Shown here piece by piece: positions 2,109-18,704 of a DNA stretch of 56,679 nucleotides; the stretch's first letter is position 1; every line of letters starts with the position of its first letter. Location of the stretch: NCBI GenBank assembly GCA_029227055.1, contig JAQXZE010000028.1:1-56679 (forward strand). Reading direction: 5' to 3'. The DNA comes from Oscillospiraceae bacterium (lineage in GTDB: Bacteria > Bacillota > Clostridia > Oscillospirales > Acutalibacteraceae). The notes beneath the pieces are model-generated. The model was not told the DNA's origin. It did no database searches and saw only the letters and a list, made by a program, of their open reading frames with translations. A program made the position numbers and the translations under genes.

Positions 2109-2996
2109 TTATTTCATAATAGAAGCTTTATACTGACTTGGAGACATTTTCATAACCGTTTTAAAGCATTTTGAAAAGTAATGCGGATTATCAAAGCATA
2201 ACAAATCGGAAATTTGGGTTATATTAAGCTTGCCCTCGCGGATAAGTTTTCTAGCTTCCTTAATTTTAATTTCATTATAGTATTTGATAATTCCGCCATC
2301 GCGGTATTTTGTAAAAATTTGTTTTACGGTGCTTTCGCTTTTGTCCAAATGATTGGCAATATCTTTAATTTTAATCTTTCCGTATATATGGCTCTTAAGA
2401 TAATCTAAAATTTCTTTTACATCGTAGGGAACATCAACATCGTCAATGAGGAAGTTTTGTCTATTTTTCTTTGCTATTACATCGGTGTTACGCGATAACT
2501 TGATAAGGAAAACCTCAAGCAAATTTTTTGTCATCTGACTGCTTCCAAAGGGAGACGGGGCAATCTTTTTTAGCTTTTGCAAAAGGGGATTGTGCTCATC
2601 TTCAAGGCGATAACAGGATAACCCCTCTGAAAACAGCTCGGATAAAAGAGATTTTTCCTCTGAACTTAGCTTGAAAATTTTCCCCTCAAAGTGCTTCATA
2701 GCCCGACTTTTACATTCAAATGTGAGAATACTTACATTTGAGGCGGTGTCGCGGTTTCCCGAAAGATTATGGAACTCATTAGGCTTATGAAAAACGATCT
2801 CACCGCTTTTAAGGATGAACTGATTATCCTCTACGGTGCATATCATTTCGCCTTTATCAATGTACACCATTTCCCAAAAGTTATGTCTTTCGCCCTCATG
2901 ATTAAAATTTTTGGATAATTCCATATAAAAAAGAGTGATAATCTTTTCGATATTAAAGACTTTTTCAAAACTAATCCGTGTAAAATTATCTTTCAT
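2109..2996 (-). CDS. AraC-family transcriptional regulator with cupin sensor domain
   Basis: A 295-residue regulator. Residues ~30-100 form a cupin-like effector domain (HNFWEMVYIDKGEM, then FHKPNEFHNLSG). Residues ~190-292 are the double helix-turn-helix AraC domain, ending ISDLLCFDNPHYFSKCFKTV and MSPSQYK, the usual second-helix signature. It is transcribed divergently from the amino-sugar operon with only about 105 bases between the starts, the classic position for a local activator that senses the sugar or an intermediate. The start ATG has GGAGA seven bases upstream. Confidence 0.9.
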   Translation of the reverse strand: MKDNFTRISFEKVFNIEKIITLFYMELSKNFNHEGERHNFWEMVYIDKGEMICTVEDNQFILKSGEIVFHKPNEFHNLSGNRDTASNVSILTFECKSRAMKHFEGKIFKLSSEEKSLLSELFSEGLSCYRLEDEHNPLLQKLKKIAPSPFGSSQMTKNLLEVFLIKLSRNTDVIAKKNRQNFLIDDVDVPYDVKEILDYLKSHIYGKIKIKDIANHLDKSESTVKQIFTKYRDGGIIKYYNEIKIKEARKLIREGKLNITQISDLLCFDNPHYFSKCFKTVMKMSPSQYKASIMK

Positions 2997-3101: not shown

Positions 3102-3806
3102 ATGTATACGGTTTTAGTAGTTACAGCCCATCCCGATGATATGGAGATAGCCTGTGCGGGAACACTGTTAAAGTGTAAAGAGCGCGGCGACAGGGTTGTT
3201 GTATGTCATTTATCAAGCGGCAATCAGGGCCACGAAGTTATTATGCCCGATGAGCTTAGAACGATGAGGGCGGCAGAGGCTCAAAAAAGTGGAGCACTTG
3301 GCGGCTTTGAAGTAATGTGGGGCGGTTTTGACGACCTTGAAATTTATGATAATAAGGAATCAAGGGATAAGGTTGTTCGCATTATCCGTAAGGTAGATCC
3401 CGATTTTATCATTACACATGACCCTGACGATTATATGCCCGACCATGTTGCCACATCGAAGCTTGTGTTTGATGCCTGCTTTACAGCAACACTTCCGCAT
3501 TATGATATGGAGCATCCCGGGAAATCGCGTCTTACCCCTGTTTACTATATGGACACCCTTTGCGGTGTTAACTTTAACCCCACAGAATATGTAGATGTTA
3601 CAAACTTTATTGATAAGAAGCTTGAAATGTTAAACTGTCACGAATCGCAGATTGTTTGGATGCGTGACCACGACAATATCGATTTTCCTGATATGGTAAA
3701 GGTCTGCTGCAGATATAGAGGCTTCCAGTGCGGAGCAGATTATGCAGAGGGCTTTAAGCAGTGTCAGGTTTATTTAAAAGGTACAACAAAACGGTATTTA
3801 CCGTAA
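3102..3806 (+). CDS. PIG-L/LmbE-family zinc N-deacetylase
   Basis: A 234-residue member of the PIG-L/LmbE fold. These enzymes use one zinc ion to remove acetyl groups from N-acetylglucosamine conjugates or related N-acetyl sugars. The zinc site is visible as AHPDDME (His10, Asp13) and DYMPDH (His115). GGFDDLEIYDN, typical of the family, lies near residue 75. The start is the ATG at 3102, seven bases after AGAGGAGG; an upstream in-frame start at 3009 lies in the promoter region. First gene of the operon, it is directly followed by a NagB-like enzyme, which suggests sequential deacetylation and deamination of an amino sugar. It lacks a signal peptide, so it is cytoplasmic. The real substrate is not known. 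Confidence 0.85.
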   Translation: MYTVLVVTAHPDDMEIACAGTLLKCKERGDRVVVCHLSSGNQGHEVIMPDELRTMRAAEAQKSGALGGFEVMWGGFDDLEIYDNKESRDKVVRIIRKVDPDFIITHDPDDYMPDHVATSKLVFDACFTATLPHYDMEHPGKSRLTPVYYMDTLCGVNFNPTEYVDVTNFIDKKLEMLNCHESQIVWMRDHDNIDFPDMVKVCCRYRGFQCGADYAEGFKQCQVYLKGTTKRYLP

Positions 3807-3829
3807 TTTAAAAAAAGGAGGAAAATATT

Positions 3830-4777
3830 ATGGATTTTAATTCAACAGTCAAGGGAAGCTTGCTAGAAGGCTTTTATCCTGCAGGATGGGATTTTGAAAA
3901 AATCGATGCTTGTATTGATGCACCCGAAAAGGTAACAGAGCGTCAGGCTCACTGGAATAAGGATTTTACCCCCATTCAGTGTGATAATTTGAATGACTTT
4001 GAAGTATATATGGGTCATGAAATTGCAAATCAGATTAAACTTGCAAAGGAAAGAAACGAAAAGATTGCTTTTATTCTTCCTGTAGGTCCTATGGGAATGT
4101 ACAGATGGGTGGTTTACTTCCTTAAGGAGTGGAAGGTTTCCTGCGAGCATGTTTATACCTTTAATATGGATGAATGGGCAGACGCAGAGGGTAACACCCT
4201 TTCTTCAGATAACCCCGGTTCATTCCAGTACGCTATGGAACAGGCACTTTTCAATCCCTTAGGTGAGCTTACTGTACCGAAGGACCAGAGAAACTTTGCA
4301 ACAAAGGAAAATCTTCCTACATACCCCGAAAAGATTGGTGCTCTAAAGGCAGAGGGCGCAAAATTGGTTTTAGTATACGGTATCGGCAGAGTATGCCATA
4401 TCGCATTCTGGGAGCCTCATTTTGCAGCAGAGTATGAAACAGCTGAAGAGTGGGCAAAGCAGCCTTATAGAATCGGTGCAAAGCTACACCCGATTACTAT
4501 CGAGCAGAACGCTCTTACAAGCTTTAAGTCGAGAACAACACTAGTTCCTTGTACTGCTAATACAATAGGTCCCGGTTTATTCTTAAAGGCAGACTACGCT
4601 ATCGGCGGTGCGGACGGAACATTCGGCAGAGGTATGCAGTGGCAGGGTCTCTCCCTTTGGATGACTCTTCGTTACGGTACAACCCCTTGGATTACATCTT
4701 CTTATATTCCTACCTTGCCGGGTAGACTCTTCTTCCACAAAGACCTTGCAGGTCCATTAGTGGCTGAATGTAATTAA
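3830..4777 (+). CDS. NagB-like amino-sugar deaminase/isomerase, atypical active site
   Basis: The 315-residue protein belongs to the glucosamine-6-phosphate deaminase fold but is longer than classical NagB (~240-270). FNMDEW (residues 111-116) matches the NagB proton-transfer loop, with Asp114 where E. coli has Asp72. [13 protein letters not shown] (184-196) matches the ring-opening loop: His190 and Glu195 are kept, but the position of the second catalytic acid (E. coli Asp141) is Val188. The loop that usually reads TGGTP before the phosphate site is VGPMG here. About 50 extra residues precede the core. It sits 23 bases after the deacetylase with AAAGGAGG as ribosome site. A role as amino-sugar isomerase on a non-standard, perhaps unphosphorylated, substrate is inferred. 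Confidence 0.75.
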
Positions 4778-4781
4778 AGAT

Positions 4782-5753
4782 ATGATAAATACGAAAGAAA
4801 AAACAGGTATTGCCGTTGCGGGAACCATCCTTGTTGATGAGATTAACGAGATAAAGAAGTATCCCGAGAGCGGTGAACTTACCCAAATCGTAAATGTCAG
4901 CAAATCGGTAGGCGGTTGTGTACCTAATGTGGCTGTTGACCTTAAAAAGATTTGTCCCGATATTAAGGTTAGCGCAATCGGAAAAGTAGGGAACGACGAA
5001 AACGGAAAGTATGTATTAGATGTGCTTTCTAAGAACGGCGTAGAGGTAAACGGTATCATTGAAGAAAAAAACGGCACTACCAGTTTTACCGAGGTTATGA
5101 GCGTTATCAACGGTCAGCGAACTTTCTTTACATACCCCGGTGCTAGTGCAGATTTCGGGTTTAGCGATATTGATTTTGAAAACCTTGATGCGAAAATTTT
5201 GCACCTTGGATATTTCTTGTTGCTAGAAAAGGTTGATAACGGCGACGGACTTATCATTCTTAAAAAAGCAAAAGAATTAGGGGTGAAAACCTCTATTGAC
5301 CTAGTTAGCGAAAATTCGGATAGATATTCTCTTCTACTGCCTTGCCTTGAATTTACAGATTACCTTATCGTAAATGAGATTGAGGCAGGAAAGCTTGCCG
5401 GTATGGAACCTAATGACGAAAACCTTGAGCTTATTGCAAATAAACTAAGGGAACTCGGTGTTCGCGAAAAGGTTATTATCCATATGCCCGAAAAGGCGGT
5501 ATGTTTATCAAATAGCGGATATATCTGTGTTAATTCCTGTGAATTGCCCAAAGGTTATATTAAGGGCACAACGGGTGCAGGAGATGCTTTTTGTGCGGGT
5601 GCTCTTATTGGTATTTATAAAAACTTTAGCGATGAGGAAATTCTTAAATTCGGTGAAGCTTGTGCGATTATGGCGCTAAGTACGGCAGATGCTACAAGCG
5701 GACTAAAATGCGAAAGCGAAGTTAAAGAAAACTATGCTCGCTTTAGAGGATAA
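4782..5753 (+). CDS. PfkB/ribokinase-family carbohydrate kinase
   Basis: A 323-residue sugar kinase. The N-terminal GTILVDEI and the SVGGCVPNVAVDL segment match the substrate-binding part of the family. GTTGAGDAFCAGAL near residue 265 is the PfkB signature 2, with the anion hole and the catalytic aspartate. It starts four bases after the NagB-like gene, so the two are translationally close. It is the only kinase in the operon. In known amino-sugar routes such a kinase makes a ketose 1,6-bisphosphate; here it could equally phosphorylate a free ketose on carbon 1. The exact substrate cannot be read from sequence. Confidence 0.85.
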   Translation: MINTKEKTGIAVAGTILVDEINEIKKYPESGELTQIVNVSKSVGGCVPNVAVDLKKICPDIKVSAIGKVGNDENGKYVLDVLSKNGVEVNGIIEEKNGTTSFTEVMSVINGQRTFFTYPGASADFGFSDIDFENLDAKILHLGYFLLLEKVDNGDGLIILKKAKELGVKTSIDLVSENSDRYSLLLPCLEFTDYLIVNEIEAGKLAGMEPNDENLELIANKLRELGVREKVIIHMPEKAVCLSNSGYICVNSCELPKGYIKGTTGAGDAFCAGALIGIYKNFSDEEILKFGEACAIMALSTADATSGLKCESEVKENYARFRG

Positions 5754-5773
5754 AATAAAGTAAGGTGTAACAA

Positions 5774-6697
5774 ATGTTAGTAAATATGAACGACGTTCTG
5801 TATAATGCCAAAAAAGGCAAATATGCAGTTGGATTATTTAATGCTGTAAACCTTGAGCTTGCAAGAGGAATTATTGCCGCTGCAGAAAAAACAGGCTCTC
5901 CCGTTATTATGGGAACAGCTGAAGTTTTGTTCCCGTACGGACCGCTTGAAGAATTATCATACTTCCTTCTTCCAATGGCTAAGAAGGCAAGTGTTCCGGT
6001 TGTTATACATCTTGACCACGGTCTTAAAAAGGAAAGCTGCCTTAAAGCTCTTGAGCTCGGCTTTACCTCGATTATGTATGACTGCTCAACAGATTCGTAC
6101 GATGAAAATGTAAGAAAGGTAAAGGAAATGGCAGAGATTGCTCATTCCTTTGGCGCTACAATTGAGGGTGAGCTTGGTCATGTTGGTGATAATGAGGGCT
6201 CGGCAGAGGGTAGTTCACATTTGAGTGACCCTTCGGCTTTCTTTACCGATCCTAAGATGGCAAAGGATTATGTAGAGAAAACAGGTGTTGACGCACTCGC
6301 AATCGCAGTAGGAAACGCTCACGGTGCATATAAATTACCGCCTAAATTGGATTTTGAGCGCATCCGCACTATTGCTAATACCGTAAATGTTCCGTTGGTG
6401 CTTCACGGCGGCTCGGGTCTTACCGATGACGATTTCAGACAGGCAATTAAAGAGGGTATTAGCAAGGTAAATATCTTTACCGACATAAATGTTGCTGCTG
6501 TTAAGGCAGAGTTTAGCAGATTTACAAATATGGATAAGGGTATTATTGACCTTATTCCTGCGGCTGTTGAAGCTATTAAGCAGGAAACAATGAAGAAGAT
6601 GGACCTTTTCGGCTCTGTTGGCAAAGGTAGATATTCACAAAACGATATAGATAAGATTGTTGATGTTGTTATAAAAGAAGTGTTGAGTAAATCATAA
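5774..6697 (+). CDS. Class II (zinc) ketose-bisphosphate-type aldolase
   Basis: The 307-residue enzyme belongs to the FbaA/GatY/KbaY family and cleaves a phosphorylated ketose to dihydroxyacetone phosphate plus an aldehyde. Visible motifs are VIHLDHG (about 78-84, zinc His and catalytic Asp), IEGELGHVGDNEG (about 132-144), NAHGAYK (zinc ligand His) and VLHGGSGL with the following KVNIFTDI phosphate-binding strand. It completes the path from amino sugar to triose phosphate after the kinase 20 bases upstream. Fructose-, tagatose- or 1-phosphate specificity cannot be separated by eye. Confidence 0.88.
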   Translation: MLVNMNDVLYNAKKGKYAVGLFNAVNLELARGIIAAAEKTGSPVIMGTAEVLFPYGPLEELSYFLLPMAKKASVPVVIHLDHGLKKESCLKALELGFTSIMYDCSTDSYDENVRKVKEMAEIAHSFGATIEGELGHVGDNEGSAEGSSHLSDPSAFFTDPKMAKDYVEKTGVDALAIAVGNAHGAYKLPPKLDFERIRTIANTVNVPLVLHGGSGLTDDDFRQAIKEGISKVNIFTDINVAAVKAEFSRFTNMDKGIIDLIPAAVEAIKQETMKKMDLFGSVGKGRYSQNDIDKIVDVVIKEVLSKS

Positions 6698-6761
6698 AAA
6701 GGTGTTATATTATATATAACCGATGAAAATCTTCGGCTTAAAAAAGTTTAGGAGATATTTT

Positions 6762-8093
6762 ATGAAACTTAATACAAAACGCACAGTCCTTATAGGCTTT
6801 GCTTTTCTTGCTATCTGCGGTTTCTGGCAGATGTATGATAGCTTAGTACCTATGATTTTAACCGAAACATTTAATATCCCCGAAACATATTCGGGCGCTA
6901 TTATGGCTGCAGATAATGTTCTTGCCTTGTTTTTGTTGCCGCTTTTTGGCGGAATATCGGATAGATGCAAAAGCAGTATGGGCAAAAGACGCCCATTTAT
7001 CCTTTTCGGAACACTGCTTTCGGTTATTCTTATGATGGGACTGCCAATGCTCGACAACAGCTATTATGCAGCCCCTAGTAAATATAAGGCAATTCTTTTT
7101 ATCGTTAACTTAGGTTTAATTCTTGTTGCAATGGGAACATACAGAAGTCCCGCTGTAGCATTGATGCCTGATGTTACACCAAAGCCGCTTCGAAGTAAGG
7201 CTAATGCCATCATTAATCTTATGGGTGCTGTTGGCGGTGTTATTTACCTTATACTTACAAGCGTGCTTTATTCAAAATCCCGAACAGAAGGTCTTTTACA
7301 TATAGATTACCTTCCGATTTTCATAATTGTGGCAGGCATTATGGTGCTTTCCGTGGTTATAATAATGCTGTTCGTTAATGAGCCTAAGCTCTTAAAAGAA
7401 CAGGCTTTATACGAAGAGAAACATCCTGAAGAAAATTTATCGGTTAAGACAGAAGACGAAAAGTATGTAATGCCTAAAGAGGTAAAGCGAAGCCTTGGCT
7501 TCTTGCTTGTTTCTATCGCCTTTTGGTTTATAGGATATAATGCGGTAAGCACTTGGTTTACCACCTATGCAACAAGCCAGTGGGATATGGCAGTAGGACA
7601 GGCAACTATGTGTCTTACAGTGGCTACTGCAGGCGCTATAATAAGTTATATCCCCGTAGGAAATATTGCAAGTAAGATAGGTAGACGCAAAACTATAAAG
7701 TTTGGCGTAATGCTTTTGGCAAGTGCCTTTGCGGCAGCCTTTTTATATACAGTAGCGTTTGATAAGTTCAGCCCCGTTTTATATCTGCTTTTTGCAATTG
7801 TGGGAGTGGCTTGGGCATCTATCAATGTAAACAGTTTGCCGATGGTTGTAGAAATGTGTTCGGGAAGCGATGTGGGAAAATTCACAGGTCTTTATTACAC
7901 TTTCAGTATGTCGGCACAGATAATAACCCCTGTTATTGCAGGTTGGCTTCTTGAAAATGTAAGCTACCGTTCACTCTTCCCCTATGCTGCAATATTCGTC
8001 TTTTTAGCTTATATCACTATGTGTAATGTACATCACGGCGATAATAAGATTCAGGCTAAAAAGGGACTTGAAGCCTTTGATACGGAAGCTTGA
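6762..8093 (+). CDS. MFS sugar transporter
   Basis: A 443-residue, 12-helix major facilitator. The loop between helices 2 and 3 reads GGISDRCKSSMGKRRPFILFG, typical of GPH/SLC45-like sugar symporters. A long hydrophilic central loop (~residues 205-235) separates the two halves. The start is the ATG at 6762 behind TTTAGGAGAT; an in-frame ATG at 6723 lacks a site. Being a non-PTS carrier, it should deliver an unphosphorylated substrate, which matters for reading the pathway. It is last of the core catabolic genes, 65 bases after the aldolase. Confidence 0.85.
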   Translation: MKLNTKRTVLIGFAFLAICGFWQMYDSLVPMILTETFNIPETYSGAIMAADNVLALFLLPLFGGISDRCKSSMGKRRPFILFGTLLSVILMMGLPMLDNSYYAAPSKYKAILFIVNLGLILVAMGTYRSPAVALMPDVTPKPLRSKANAIINLMGAVGGVIYLILTSVLYSKSRTEGLLHIDYLPIFIIVAGIMVLSVVIIMLFVNEPKLLKEQALYEEKHPEENLSVKTEDEKYVMPKEVKRSLGFLLVSIAFWFIGYNAVSTWFTTYATSQWDMAVGQATMCLTVATAGAIISYIPVGNIASKIGRRKTIKFGVMLLASAFAAAFLYTVAFDKFSPVLYLLFAIVGVAWASINVNSLPMVVEMCSGSDVGKFTGLYYTFSMSAQIITPVIAGWLLENVSYRSLFPYAAIFVFLAYITMCNVHHGDNKIQAKKGLEAFDTEA

Positions 8094-8109
8094 GAGGAAT
8101 AATTTTATA

Positions 8110-8931
8110 ATGAAAATTATAGCGCTTATTCTTTTAATTTTAATAGCTTTTATAATATTCTACATTTTCTCCTTGAGGGGCAGAGTAGGATTTGCAGACT
8201 GGTCACAGTTTAAGGGTTACTATTATGCCCATAGAGGTCTTCATAATAAAACAAATGTACCTGAAAATAGTTTGGCGGCTTTTAGTCGCGCAGTGGATAA
8301 GGGATACGGTATAGAATTTGATGTTCACCTTTTGAGTGACGGCGAGCTTGCAATAATACACGATTCTTCACTGCTTCGAACAGCGGGTGTAGATGTTAAG
8401 GTAGAGGACTTAAAGTCTGAAGACTTAAAAAACTATTTTCTTGAGGGAACCGCCGAAACGATACCGACACTTGAAAAAACGCTCTCGTTGGTAGACGGCA
8501 AAACACCCTTAATAATCGAACTTAAAACAAGCGGTAATAATGTAAATGATTTGTGCGAGAGGGTGTATGAAACCCTAAAGGGATATAGCGGCGCATATTG
8601 TATAGAAAGCTTCGACCCAAGGTGTATTTATTGGTTTTATAAGAATAAACCCGAGGTTATAAGGGGACAGCTTTCTGAAAATTTTTATAAATCGAAAACA
8701 ACAAAAGCGCCCTTTGTTTTAAAATTTTTGATGACAGGGCTTTTTACAAATTTTCTAACGCGTCCCGATTTTATAGCATACAAATTTTCCGATCGCGCTA
8801 GCATAAGCAACAAAATTTGCACTAAGCTTTGGAAAATGCAGAGTGTTGGTTGGACTATTACAGACGAAAATGATATAAATAAAGCAAAACTAGAGAATGT
8901 TTTCCCTATTTTTGAAGATATTTATCCCTAA
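8110..8931 (+). CDS. Membrane-anchored glycerophosphodiester phosphodiesterase
   Basis: A 273-residue GDPD-family protein with one N-terminal transmembrane helix (residues ~3-22) and a catalytic domain probably outside the cell. The signature AHRGLHNK lies at ~42-49, PENSLAAF shortly after, then EFDVHLLSDG and IIHD supply the metal-binding Glu/Asp and second His. It would release an alcohol from glycerophosphodiesters or teichoic-acid-like polymers. It begins 16 bases after the transporter stop, with GAGAGGAAT as ribosome site, so it is part of the operon. It may free the substrate from a glycerophosphate-decorated glycan, which is inference. Confidence 0.82.
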   Translation: MKIIALILLILIAFIIFYIFSLRGRVGFADWSQFKGYYYAHRGLHNKTNVPENSLAAFSRAVDKGYGIEFDVHLLSDGELAIIHDSSLLRTAGVDVKVEDLKSEDLKNYFLEGTAETIPTLEKTLSLVDGKTPLIIELKTSGNNVNDLCERVYETLKGYSGAYCIESFDPRCIYWFYKNKPEVIRGQLSENFYKSKTTKAPFVLKFLMTGLFTNFLTRPDFIAYKFSDRASISNKICTKLWKMQSVGWTITDENDINKAKLENVFPIFEDIYP

Positions 8932-8938
8932 ATTATAA

Positions 8939-8980
8939 GGCTCGAGCAAGGAATATAAATTCTTTGCTCGAGCCTTTTTA
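8939..8980 (+). terminator. Terminator of the amino-sugar operon
   Basis: Stem GGCTCGAGCAA (8939-8949) pairs with TTGCTCGAGCC (8964-8974) and is followed by TTTTTATTTTA. It lies eight bases after the GDPD stop. Confidence 0.9.
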
Positions 8981-16478: not shown

Positions 16479-17375
16479 ATGAAAACAGAGAAGAATATCT
16501 TAATTGCTTTTATTTTGAATTTGGCATTTTCCATTTTTGAGTTTGCAGGCGGTATCTTTACTGGTAGTGTTGCCATCATTTCTGATGCTGTACACGATAT
16601 TGGAGATGCAGTCAGCATCGGCATATCTTATTTCTTTGAAAAGAAAAGTAAGAAGCAACCTGACGAAAAATATACTTACGGGTATGCAAGATATTCTATT
16701 ATTGGCAGTGTAATCACTACATTGATTCTTCTGTTTGGTTCTGTTATGGTTATCTTCAATGCCATCAACAGAATTATCGAACCCACAGAAATCAACTATA
16801 ACGGAATGATTATCTTTGCTATTATCGGCGTATGTGTTAATTTTAGTGCAGTATTTCTCACTCGTGAGGGTGATTCGCTAAACCAGAAAGCTGTCAATCT
16901 TCATATGCTTGAAGATGTGCTTGGATGGGTGGTTGTATTGGTCGGTGCTATTGTAATGCGATTTTCTGATTTTGCCCTCATTGACCCGATTATGTCCATT
17001 GGTGTTGCGGTATTCATCCTTGTAAATGCTATTAAGAACTTGAAAGAGGCAATTGACCTATTCCTTGAAAAAACACCTCATGGCATTGATGTTAAGGAAA
17101 TTAAAGGACACATTGCTGAGATTGACGGTGTACAGGATGTTCACCACATCCACATTTGGAGTATGGATGGTCAAAGCAACTACGCAACTATGCACATTGT
17201 AACAAATTCTGATTCTCACCAAATCAAAGTAAAAGTCCGTGCGGAATTGCAGGAACACGGCATAGGTCATGCAACACTTGAACTTGAAGCAGAAAATGAA
17301 CATTGCCACGAGGAGAATTGCCATGTGGAATTAAGCGCAACTTCTTCTGGGCATCACCACCATCATCACCATTAA
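16479..17375 (+). CDS. Cation diffusion facilitator (CzcD-like zinc/cobalt exporter) with His7 tail
   Basis: A 298-residue CDF transporter that exchanges divalent metal for protons. Six helices span residues ~8-205. The transport metal site is seen as SDAVHDIGDA (His39, Asp40, Asp43) and HMLEDVLGW in helix 5. The cytoplasmic C-terminal domain (~205-280) has VHHIHIWSMDGQ, the typical regulatory metal site. The tail is rich in His and Cys (NEHCHEENCHVE) and ends SSGHHHHHHH, giving seven terminal histidines. Divergent TetR regulator, own terminator: a compact metal-resistance module, possibly acquired. Zn is the likeliest substrate, which is inferred. Confidence 0.92.
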   Translation: MKTEKNILIAFILNLAFSIFEFAGGIFTGSVAIISDAVHDIGDAVSIGISYFFEKKSKKQPDEKYTYGYARYSIIGSVITTLILLFGSVMVIFNAINRIIEPTEINYNGMIIFAIIGVCVNFSAVFLTREGDSLNQKAVNLHMLEDVLGWVVVLVGAIVMRFSDFALIDPIMSIGVAVFILVNAIKNLKEAIDLFLEKTPHGIDVKEIKGHIAEIDGVQDVHHIHIWSMDGQSNYATMHIVTNSDSHQIKVKVRAELQEHGIGHATLELEAENEHCHEENCHVELSATSSGHHHHHHH

Positions 17376-17380
17376 AGCGA

Positions 17381-17412
17381 AAGAGCAGAACGATTGTGTT
17401 CTGCTCTTTTTT
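17381..17412 (+). terminator. Terminator of the CDF gene
   Basis: AAGAGCAGAAC (17381-17391) pairs with GTTCTGCTCTT (17398-17408), followed by T residues, a few bases after the stop codon. Confidence 0.9.
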
Positions 17413-17548
17413 ATAAATTCTTATTTATCGGTTAGTTGTATTATAGCACAACTTGACTAACAAAGAAAGAGAATATTAAAAAACTACGGGTGTTTTTGTA
17501 TCTTGTTGTACTGTCCTCAACAGTACGACCCATATCAGTCTTCTTTTT

Positions 17549-18079
17549 TTATACCTTAAAAATCTTTTTAATCCTCGAATGTAGCTTAAACATATAAACC
17601 GCAGCCATTCTTGAAACGGTAATATCATATAAAACAAATACGATATTAGCAAGGCCCAAAAAGATATATGAGCCGTATTTACCGAGTATTCCGAAGTCCT
17701 CAGCAGATACCTTGAATAGTCCTGCAAAGAGAAAATATGCGGCTAATACTGCGGCATTGAAAAAAATAAATTTTAAAATCCATTCAAATACCGAGTTCTT
17801 TAATTTTTCTATAAAATATTTTGCTATAGGATAATATCCGAAAAAGCAGATATAGAGCAGTTTTGCCTCACTCTCTGCTACAAAAAAGCAGATAAGCGCC
17901 GAAGAAATATAGGTAAGAGTAGCCCATTTTGCATCTGTTTCGATAAGTACTGCCATCGCGGCAAGGCCTGCAATCGCGGGCAGAGCGTAGGTTAAATAGG
18001 GGAAATACGCCGCTACTACGAAAATTACCGCAAGGGCTGACATTATAGCGCTGAATGTTAGCTTTGAAGTGTTTTTCAA
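17549..18079 (-). CDS. Conserved membrane protein, ECF S-component-like
   Basis: A 176-residue protein with about five or six helices (residues ~9-30, 33-50, 55-75, 80-92, 103-125, 135-160). Its beginning, KLTFSAIMSALAVIFVVAAYF, has the small-residue-rich first helix typical of ECF transporter substrate-binding (S) components and similar regulators. No specific family is certain. It lies 22 bases after the J-domain gene on the same strand, so it seems to belong to the same operon as the DUF5685 and J-domain genes. Confidence 0.6.
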   Translation of the reverse strand: MKNTSKLTFSAIMSALAVIFVVAAYFPYLTYALPAIAGLAAMAVLIETDAKWATLTYISSALICFFVAESEAKLLYICFFGYYPIAKYFIEKLKNSVFEWILKFIFFNAAVLAAYFLFAGLFKVSAEDFGILGKYGSYIFLGLANIVFVLYDITVSRMAAVYMFKLHSRIKKIFKV

Positions 18080-18101
18080 AATAAAACCTCCACCCTAAAT
18101 G

Positions 18102-18704
18102 TTAGCAGCAGGGGATAAGGTCGCCGCCCATACATTCACAGCAACAGTCTGCACAAAGAAGATTTGTACAACAGTCGCAAGAATTACAGCTAGCTGCAGT
18201 TCCATAGCTTCTATATGGGTTATACTGATTTTGTGACTGCCTTTGAGCGTTTCTGTATGCATTTTGATATTCGGGATTATTGGGGTTCATTCTGCAAGCG
18301 GTTGCAAAGCTTGTAAAGGCACTGTCAAACCAACCTCTGCGATAAAGAACAGTTCCGTTCAGAAAATACCATTCTGCATCTCGCATATTGGGGGCAACGC
18401 CGTCCAAAACCTCTTGCGCCTCTTCAAGTCTACCCTGATTTATAAGATTTCTGACTTCAGGGAAAGAGGATGCCGACGAATAATTGTAAGAGCTGTTATT
18501 TTTATTTGTGCGACCCTTTCGCTCGTTCATAATAGCATCGTAAGCGTCGTTAATCTCCTTCATTTTCTCAGAGGCCAAATCCGATAAGGGATTATCTGTA
18601 TAATTATCGGGGTGGTATTTCCTTGCAAGCTCGCGGTAGGCGTTTTTGATTTCCTCGTCGGTAGCATTCTTTGGAACGCCTAATACGGAATAGGGATTTT
18701 TCAT
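18102..18704 (-). CDS. J-domain protein with cysteine-rich C-terminal tail
   Basis: The 200-residue protein begins with a J domain (residues ~3-65, [20 protein letters not shown], with the Hsp70-activating HPD in [10 protein letters not shown]). A serine/asparagine linker and a TPR-like helical segment follow (~80-145, [30 protein letters not shown]). A Gln/Asn/Tyr-rich stretch comes next, and the last 28 residues contain 11 cysteines, ending [12 protein letters not shown]. Its ATG overlaps the DUF5685 stop as ATGA, so the two are coupled. It would recruit DnaK to a client, possibly DUF5685 or the membrane protein. The cysteine tail might bind metal. Both are inference. Confidence 0.85.

Follow-up and report, generated by a model that had tools for sequence, protein, structure and literature searches.

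A candidate operon for acetylated amino sugars that may phosphorylate last, with a NagB-like protein lacking the phosphate loop

The window analyzed here is a 56,679-nucleotide contig (JAQXZE010000028.1) of an Oscillospiraceae bacterium assembly (GCA_029227055.1). Its positions 3102-8931 hold a unit of six plus-strand genes with short intergenic gaps, and an AraC-family regulator gene with a cupin-like sensor domain diverges from it (2109..2996, minus strand; Pfam HTH_18 1.4e-13, Cupin_2 3.2e-06). In order, the six genes encode an LmbE/PIG-L type de-N-acetylase (3102..3806; PIG-L 1.7e-28), a NagB-like protein without the phosphate loop of NagB, which we propose to be a free-amino-sugar deaminase/isomerase (3830..4777), a PfkB-family sugar kinase, proposed to act on C1 of a ketose (4782..5753; PfkB 6.1e-37), a class II aldolase of the YdjI type (5774..6697; F_bP_aldolase 2.4e-89), an MFS transporter resembling GPH/sucrose symporters (6723..8093; MFS_1 3.2e-43, TIGR01301 below its cut-off), and a GDPD-family protein (8110..8931). 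All seven frames are open and belong to the families expected, by the open reading frame (ORF) list, Pfam, and NCBIfam, which confirms the gene content and order given in a preliminary description made from the sequence. As described there, the operon is real.

The unit ends at a terminator-like hairpin directly past the GDPD gene (8937..8976, plus strand; 18 pairs, T-rich tail), the strongest on the plus strand of the scanned stretch. The scan returned 10 sites in all, compared to 5.8 +/- 2.6 in shuffled sequence, and the hairpins inside the unit are weaker (5-8 pairs). A second strong terminator-like hairpin (17 pairs) lies at 2068-2104 of the window, between the AraC gene and the gene upstream of it. 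G+C is 40.5% for 3102-8931 and 39.3% for the whole window. The deacetylase begins with the ATG at 3102, with GAGGAGG immediately 5' of it; the family and structure-relative searches of this protein took 3099 as the start, one codon too far 5'. For the GDPD gene, 8110 is probably a better start than the mechanical ORF start at 8026, the frame on which its Pfam score (GDPD 4.5e-19) was computed; the translation shows an N-terminal hydrophobic stretch.

Our interpretation turns mainly on the NagB-like protein. No Pfam family matched it at 1e-3, and the NCBIfam model nagB (TIGR00502) gave 50.8 bits, under its curated cut-off of 236.9. With an AlphaFold2 model made from 37 sequences (pLDDT 85.7, pTM 0.87, residues 225-239 below 50), Foldseek ranked NagB structures best (3hn6, 1.5e-15, TMq 0.64), which places the predicted model in the NagB fold. 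Judged by sequence and predicted structure, the label "NagB-like" is right, yet it denotes a distant branch of NagB. When 10 of the 37 family rows were aligned with E. coli NagB, the positions of Asp72, His143, and Glu148 were kept in all 10, the TG[GS][ST]P loop was shortened by two residues, and Gln replaced Lys208. We take the loop and Lys208 to be the 6-phosphate binding elements of NagB, and Asp72, Asp141, His143, and Glu148 to be catalytic; a literature search for a paper on the roles of these residues found none. Both loop and Lys208 are intact in E. coli NagB and in five classical NagBs of operon-bearing genomes. Among 113 NagB-like ORFs, P[VA]GPMGMY is present in 111, FNMDEW in 112, and GR..H[IV]AFWEP in 111, with TG[GSA][ST]P in none. 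Loss of the phosphate loop and of Lys208 would fit phosphorylation late in the pathway.

Close relatives of this protein (at least 61% identity) occur in 40 of the 295 genomes of the order, its own included, and the next-best relatives in order genomes are 26-34% identical. At E 1e-60, a sample of 398 genomes of the phylum contained 3 with the gene, again with its own among them. In the order search, among the genomes listed, 19 of the same family and one of the same genus gave no NagB-like match (221 further matchless genomes of the order are not named individually); another genome of the genus has a 27% paralogue and nothing closer. Because members of the same family and genus are without the close gene, its distribution suggests horizontal gain. 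Scanning genome_contigs for this branch confirmed at least 576 stretches. The best 80 of these are all titled metagenome-assembled genomes, and 60 of the 80 titles name the cecum, colon, or rectum of deer, goat, sheep, cattle, buffalo, or yak; the rest give goat rumen (1), horse feces (1), or no source (18).

To describe the gene set, we defined a run as same-strand genes with gaps of at most 300 bases around a NagB-like gene, and counted 112 distinct loci (a NagB-like gene was called at 118, of which 6 were dropped as duplicates; L128 and L143, 2 of 120 loci, have no called NagB-like ORF and are outside the counts). Each neighbor cluster was named from the scan of one member or a few. LmbE is present in 89 of the 112 runs, PfkB in 67, and the aldolase in 39, accompanied by PfkB in 37 of the 39; a divergent AraC-type gene stands ahead of 60. 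Since a contig or locus end lies no more than 600 bases from 42 of the runs, these partner counts are low estimates. MFS and GDPD genes, absent from the other 111 runs, were rejected as core parts. Because MFS is not conserved, the idea in the preliminary description of an importer delivering free sugar concerns a single genome.

The deacetylase scores 100.2 bits against PF02585 (cut-off 28.2) and is the only match to that family in its own genome. Its closest solved relatives are diacetylchitobiose deacetylases (8bgn, 9.2e-22), and the HPDD motif is found in its translation, as in 95 of the 98 ORFs of the family. An LmbE-type deacetylase, rather than one of the NagA type, would fit an order in which free sugar is used first. 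A role in bacillithiol biosynthesis was rejected, as the protein stays under the BshB1 cut-off (TIGR04001, 129.1 of 182.5). The Thermococcus diacetylchitobiose deacetylase is reported to convert N-acetylglucosamine (GlcNAc) to glucosamine and acetate (PMC7880967).

The kinase is a clear PfkB protein (PF00294, 128 bits, cut-off 25.8), and no specific NCBIfam kinase model reached its cut-off. The aldolase scores 251 bits with TIGR00167 (cut-off 215.6); its best solved relative is YdjI (6ofu, 1.5e-57), to which it is 39% identical. A Giardia aldolase binds fructose 1,6-bisphosphate through R259 and R280, which D278 coordinates, and R259A raises Km 160-fold (PMC6692403); from the residue numbers and an oligonucleotide given there, we assigned R259 to the NxDSxxR stretch and D278-R280 to the DPR motif. 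The window aldolase has no DPR motif and has Asn at the Arg259 position. At 39 operon loci, DPR and Arg/Lys259 are absent from 40 of 40 aldolase rows, as they are from E. coli YdjI, which is annotated as an L-glycero-L-galacto-octuluronate-1-phosphate aldolase. E. coli KbaY has DPR (with Lys259), and DPR is likewise present in the five top-scoring aldolases found outside the operon in five operon genomes, presumed to be housekeeping enzymes. Of the aldolases lying outside the runs, two (L042, L104) retain DPR, and L177, L181, and the remainder do not. The absence of DPR would favor late phosphorylation, and we propose that the operon enzyme is a YdjI-type ketose-1-phosphate aldolase.

With confidence a little better than even, we read the unit as an operon for the catabolism of an acetylated amino sugar in its unphosphorylated form, with deacetylation, deamination, phosphorylation, and cleavage in that order. 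The LmbE-type enzyme would deacetylate an N-acetylhexosamine, either free or in a short glycoside. The NagB-like protein would open the ring of the free 2-amino sugar, isomerize it, and deaminate it to a free ketose and ammonia; NagB performs the same ring-opening deaminating isomerization on the 6-phosphate. The PfkB kinase would then phosphorylate the ketose, and the aldolase would split the resulting ketose-1-phosphate into dihydroxyacetone phosphate (DHAP) and an unphosphorylated aldehyde, which would be glyceraldehyde were fructose or tagatose the ketose. Class II aldolases of this family yield DHAP, so the single phosphate should sit on C1, most likely the position used, which the preliminary description left unstated. 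The presence of a single kinase in the operon would fit late phosphorylation as well. The late order proposed earlier is thus in keeping with the loop and Lys208 loss, the deacetylase type, the single kinase, and the DPR-less aldolases, while we infer its individual steps from sequence. A broader claim seems to us evenly balanced: that the NagB-like family is a new isomerizing deaminase of free amino sugars, forming with LmbE, a C1-ketose kinase, and a ketose-1-phosphate aldolase a phosphate-last pathway that is widespread in herbivore hindgut Clostridia, beside the Nag route.

Hints about the substrate come from neighboring genes. GH20 genes occur in two runs, GH20C in one run and in two divergent upstream genes, GH94 in one of three in-run singletons scanned, and DUF4838 in 8 of the 112 runs (L037:10446-12383, L077, L083, L095, L102, L125, L133, L140). 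Because a GH20 protein weakly matches DUF4838, DUF4838 proteins may be hexosaminidase-like. Together these neighbors would favor glycosides of GlcNAc or N-acetylgalactosamine (GalNAc).

The rest of the cell also bears on what the operon does. Its own genome encodes NagA (G000:C20), NagB (G000:C46, where a stop closes a 249-residue frame and the match continues beyond it), and three class II aldolases. Given the classical NagA and NagB, the operon would be an additional route and not a replacement; the idea that it is the cell's only GlcNAc route was rejected on the same ground. A second DPR-less aldolase lies on the NagA contig (G000:C20:8905-9744 and 17074-18192), and a second sugar cluster may exist around this aldolase and NagA. 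Genome-wide scans for NagA, NagB, and the phosphotransferase system (PTS) covered 37 of the 40 genomes of the order in which a relative of at least 61% identity occurs (G134, G142, and G234 were left out). NagA was over its cut-off in 34 of the 37 and NagB in 23. PTS_EIIC, searched as PF02378 only and not as other EIIC families, was not found in 34, the window's own genome included, and is present in 3. No hexosamine kinase was recognized among the annotated neighbor clusters, and no genome-wide search for one was made; ROK-family genes are found in 6 of the 112 runs, the one member scanned having also a weak, below-cut-off helix-turn-helix match.

A number of observations weigh against the phosphate-last reading, and some of them suit its rivals. 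The Asp141 position of NagB is lost in the NagB-like family, and the classical NagA and NagB show, at the level of gene content, that the operon would not be needed for GlcNAc. Loop loss is also more widely spread. Nine further aligned paralogues (L071, L152-L157, L165, L166) lack the loop; L163 and L164 lack it, keep Lys208, and adjoin NagA proteins over cut-off; and distant loop-less paralogues adjoin NagA-like amidohydrolases at 8 of 9 loci examined. By itself, then, a missing loop is no proof that phosphate is no longer used. A rule pairing LmbE with loop-less and NagA with looped NagB failed at these 8 of 9 loci and at L163 and L164. (The nine loci are L182-L189 and L071; in some, an FGGY kinase, a ceramidase-like protein, or a KbaY-like aldolase is also present, and these paralogues may belong to a wider class of phosphate-late pathways.) Position 259 is Arg in two and Gln in three of the five presumed housekeeping aldolases; as Arg259 is missing from three of them, only DPR separates them from the operon enzymes, and the unrelated non-operon aldolase L176 lacks DPR as well. 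A mannitol-1-phosphate-5-dehydrogenase-like gene occurs in 13 of the 112 runs (L046, L051, L059, L096, L101, L104, L109, L110, L111, L114, L121, L129, L131), each time together with PfkB and without the aldolase. Classical mannitol-1-phosphate dehydrogenase works on fructose-6-phosphate, and such a partner would suit phosphorylation on C6 and fits poorly with C1. Either this enzyme acts on ketose-1-phosphate or the regiochemistry of the kinase varies; a Zn-dehydrogenase beside it in two runs might suggest the former. The kinase tree interleaves aldolase- and dehydrogenase-partnered kinases, with at least four changes forced by well-supported branches (branches to L108, L144, L135, and YdjH are long, deep joins are unsure, and the short fragment L051 was omitted); lacking a split by partner, it cannot decide which carbon is phosphorylated. 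The loop-less paralogues beside NagA-type deacetylases and the dehydrogenase-like partner would fit a phosphate-first scheme, in which PfkB phosphorylates the free acetylated or amino sugar, leaving LmbE and the NagB-like protein to work on the phosphate through other residues; the order of the genes does not dictate that of the steps. We nonetheless consider this scheme unlikely, with the phosphate loop and Lys208 lost together across the family and an aldolase that would need a second kinase step, yet has no DPR.

Equally doubtful is a variant with the same step order and a substrate that cannot be phosphorylated on C6, either a 6-deoxy sugar (N-acetylquinovosamine, N-acetylfucosamine) or a hexosaminuronic acid, yielding DHAP and lactaldehyde or tartronate semialdehyde. 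It would explain both the lost 6-phosphate loop and a second route beside NagA and NagB, and the closest characterized aldolase, YdjI, is annotated for a uronate ketose-1-phosphate. A DegT aminotransferase cluster, PseC-like in the one member scanned, is found in 5 runs. On the other hand, no enzyme for lactaldehyde or tartronate semialdehyde was seen among the scanned neighbors (most singleton neighbors were not scanned), and the GH20 and GH20C neighbors, few as the GH20 genes are, suit ordinary hexosamines better. At L047, L052, L056, L057, and L063, the LmbE/NagB-like pair is joined by the PseC-like DegT, a Gfo/Idh protein, and sometimes a ceramidase-like gene, a sub-lineage hinting at diamino or rare sugars. 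Less probable still, in our view, is that the pair remodels a glycan or glycoside in connection with 3-keto-sugar chemistry, leaving PfkB and the aldolase to handle a by-product. Gfo/Idh oxidoreductases (36 of 112 runs), xylose-isomerase-like barrels (9 runs), and DUF4838 would be its signs. So would the 30 runs that have LmbE and no PfkB, aldolase, or dehydrogenase-like gene, 17 of them not cut by a contig end; 13 others lack LmbE along with all three, and both sets weigh against the phosphate-last reading. Against it, PfkB in 67 of the runs and the kept NagB catalytic positions argue for deaminating isomerization to a ketose. Gfo/Idh and the barrel share a run at L036, L037, L084, L087, L093, L097, L114, L130, and L140, a pairing that recalls 3-keto-glycoside cleavage.

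The gene set looks common to many gut bacteria of plant-eating animals, and it looks to reverse the textbook order in which phosphate comes first. If the phosphate-last reading is correct, it would give anaerobes of the gut a way to use acetylated amino sugars that needs neither a PTS nor a hexosamine kinase; automatic annotation of the NagB-like family as 6-phosphate enzymes would be wrong, and pathway models of herbivore gut metagenomes would miss a step. A large, unassigned branch of the NagB fold (the at least 576 stretches above) would also become testable.

Among known systems, E. coli NagE/NagA/NagB shares deacetylation followed by deaminating isomerization to a ketose on a NagB fold. 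It differs in having a PTS enzyme gene next to nagB and in phosphorylating the sugar as it enters the cell, whereas the window operon has LmbE in place of NagA, no phosphate loop, an aldolase of its own, and no PTS_EIIC in its genome. The E. coli ydj cluster likewise pairs a kinase (YdjH) with a class II aldolase (YdjI), annotated for a ketose/1-phosphate, and YdjI and the operon aldolases share the absence of DPR and Arg259; the cluster has no deacetylase or deaminase. The aga/kba GalNAc pathway of E. coli also joins a deaminase to a class II aldolase for an amino sugar, but with PTS genes and with DPR and Lys259 in KbaY. In the Thermococcus route, glucosamine is phosphorylated before deamination, unlike the order proposed here, and we know of no NagB-like/PfkB/aldolase operon for it. 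Its diacetylchitobiose deacetylase is related to the operon enzyme and is reported to act on unphosphorylated GlcNAc compounds.

The closest parallel is the GlcNAc1A pathway of Pseudoalteromonas prydzensis (OngB-OngC-KdgK), in which deacetylation and deamination precede phosphorylation, as we propose for the window operon (PMC12017989). Late phosphorylation in general is thus already described, where the preliminary description had it as possibly undescribed. The same paper gives an aldonic acid as the substrate, a D-aminoacylase-like fold for OngB, and 2-keto-3-deoxygluconate as the product (PMC12017989), whereas the window operon has LmbE and a NagB fold and would be expected to yield a ketose. 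No description of this operon was found among the literature matches listed, in a search whose coverage leaves out most subscription journals. What looks new is a version that handles a reducing amino sugar by isomerization on a NagB fold and goes on to C1 phosphorylation and aldol cleavage.

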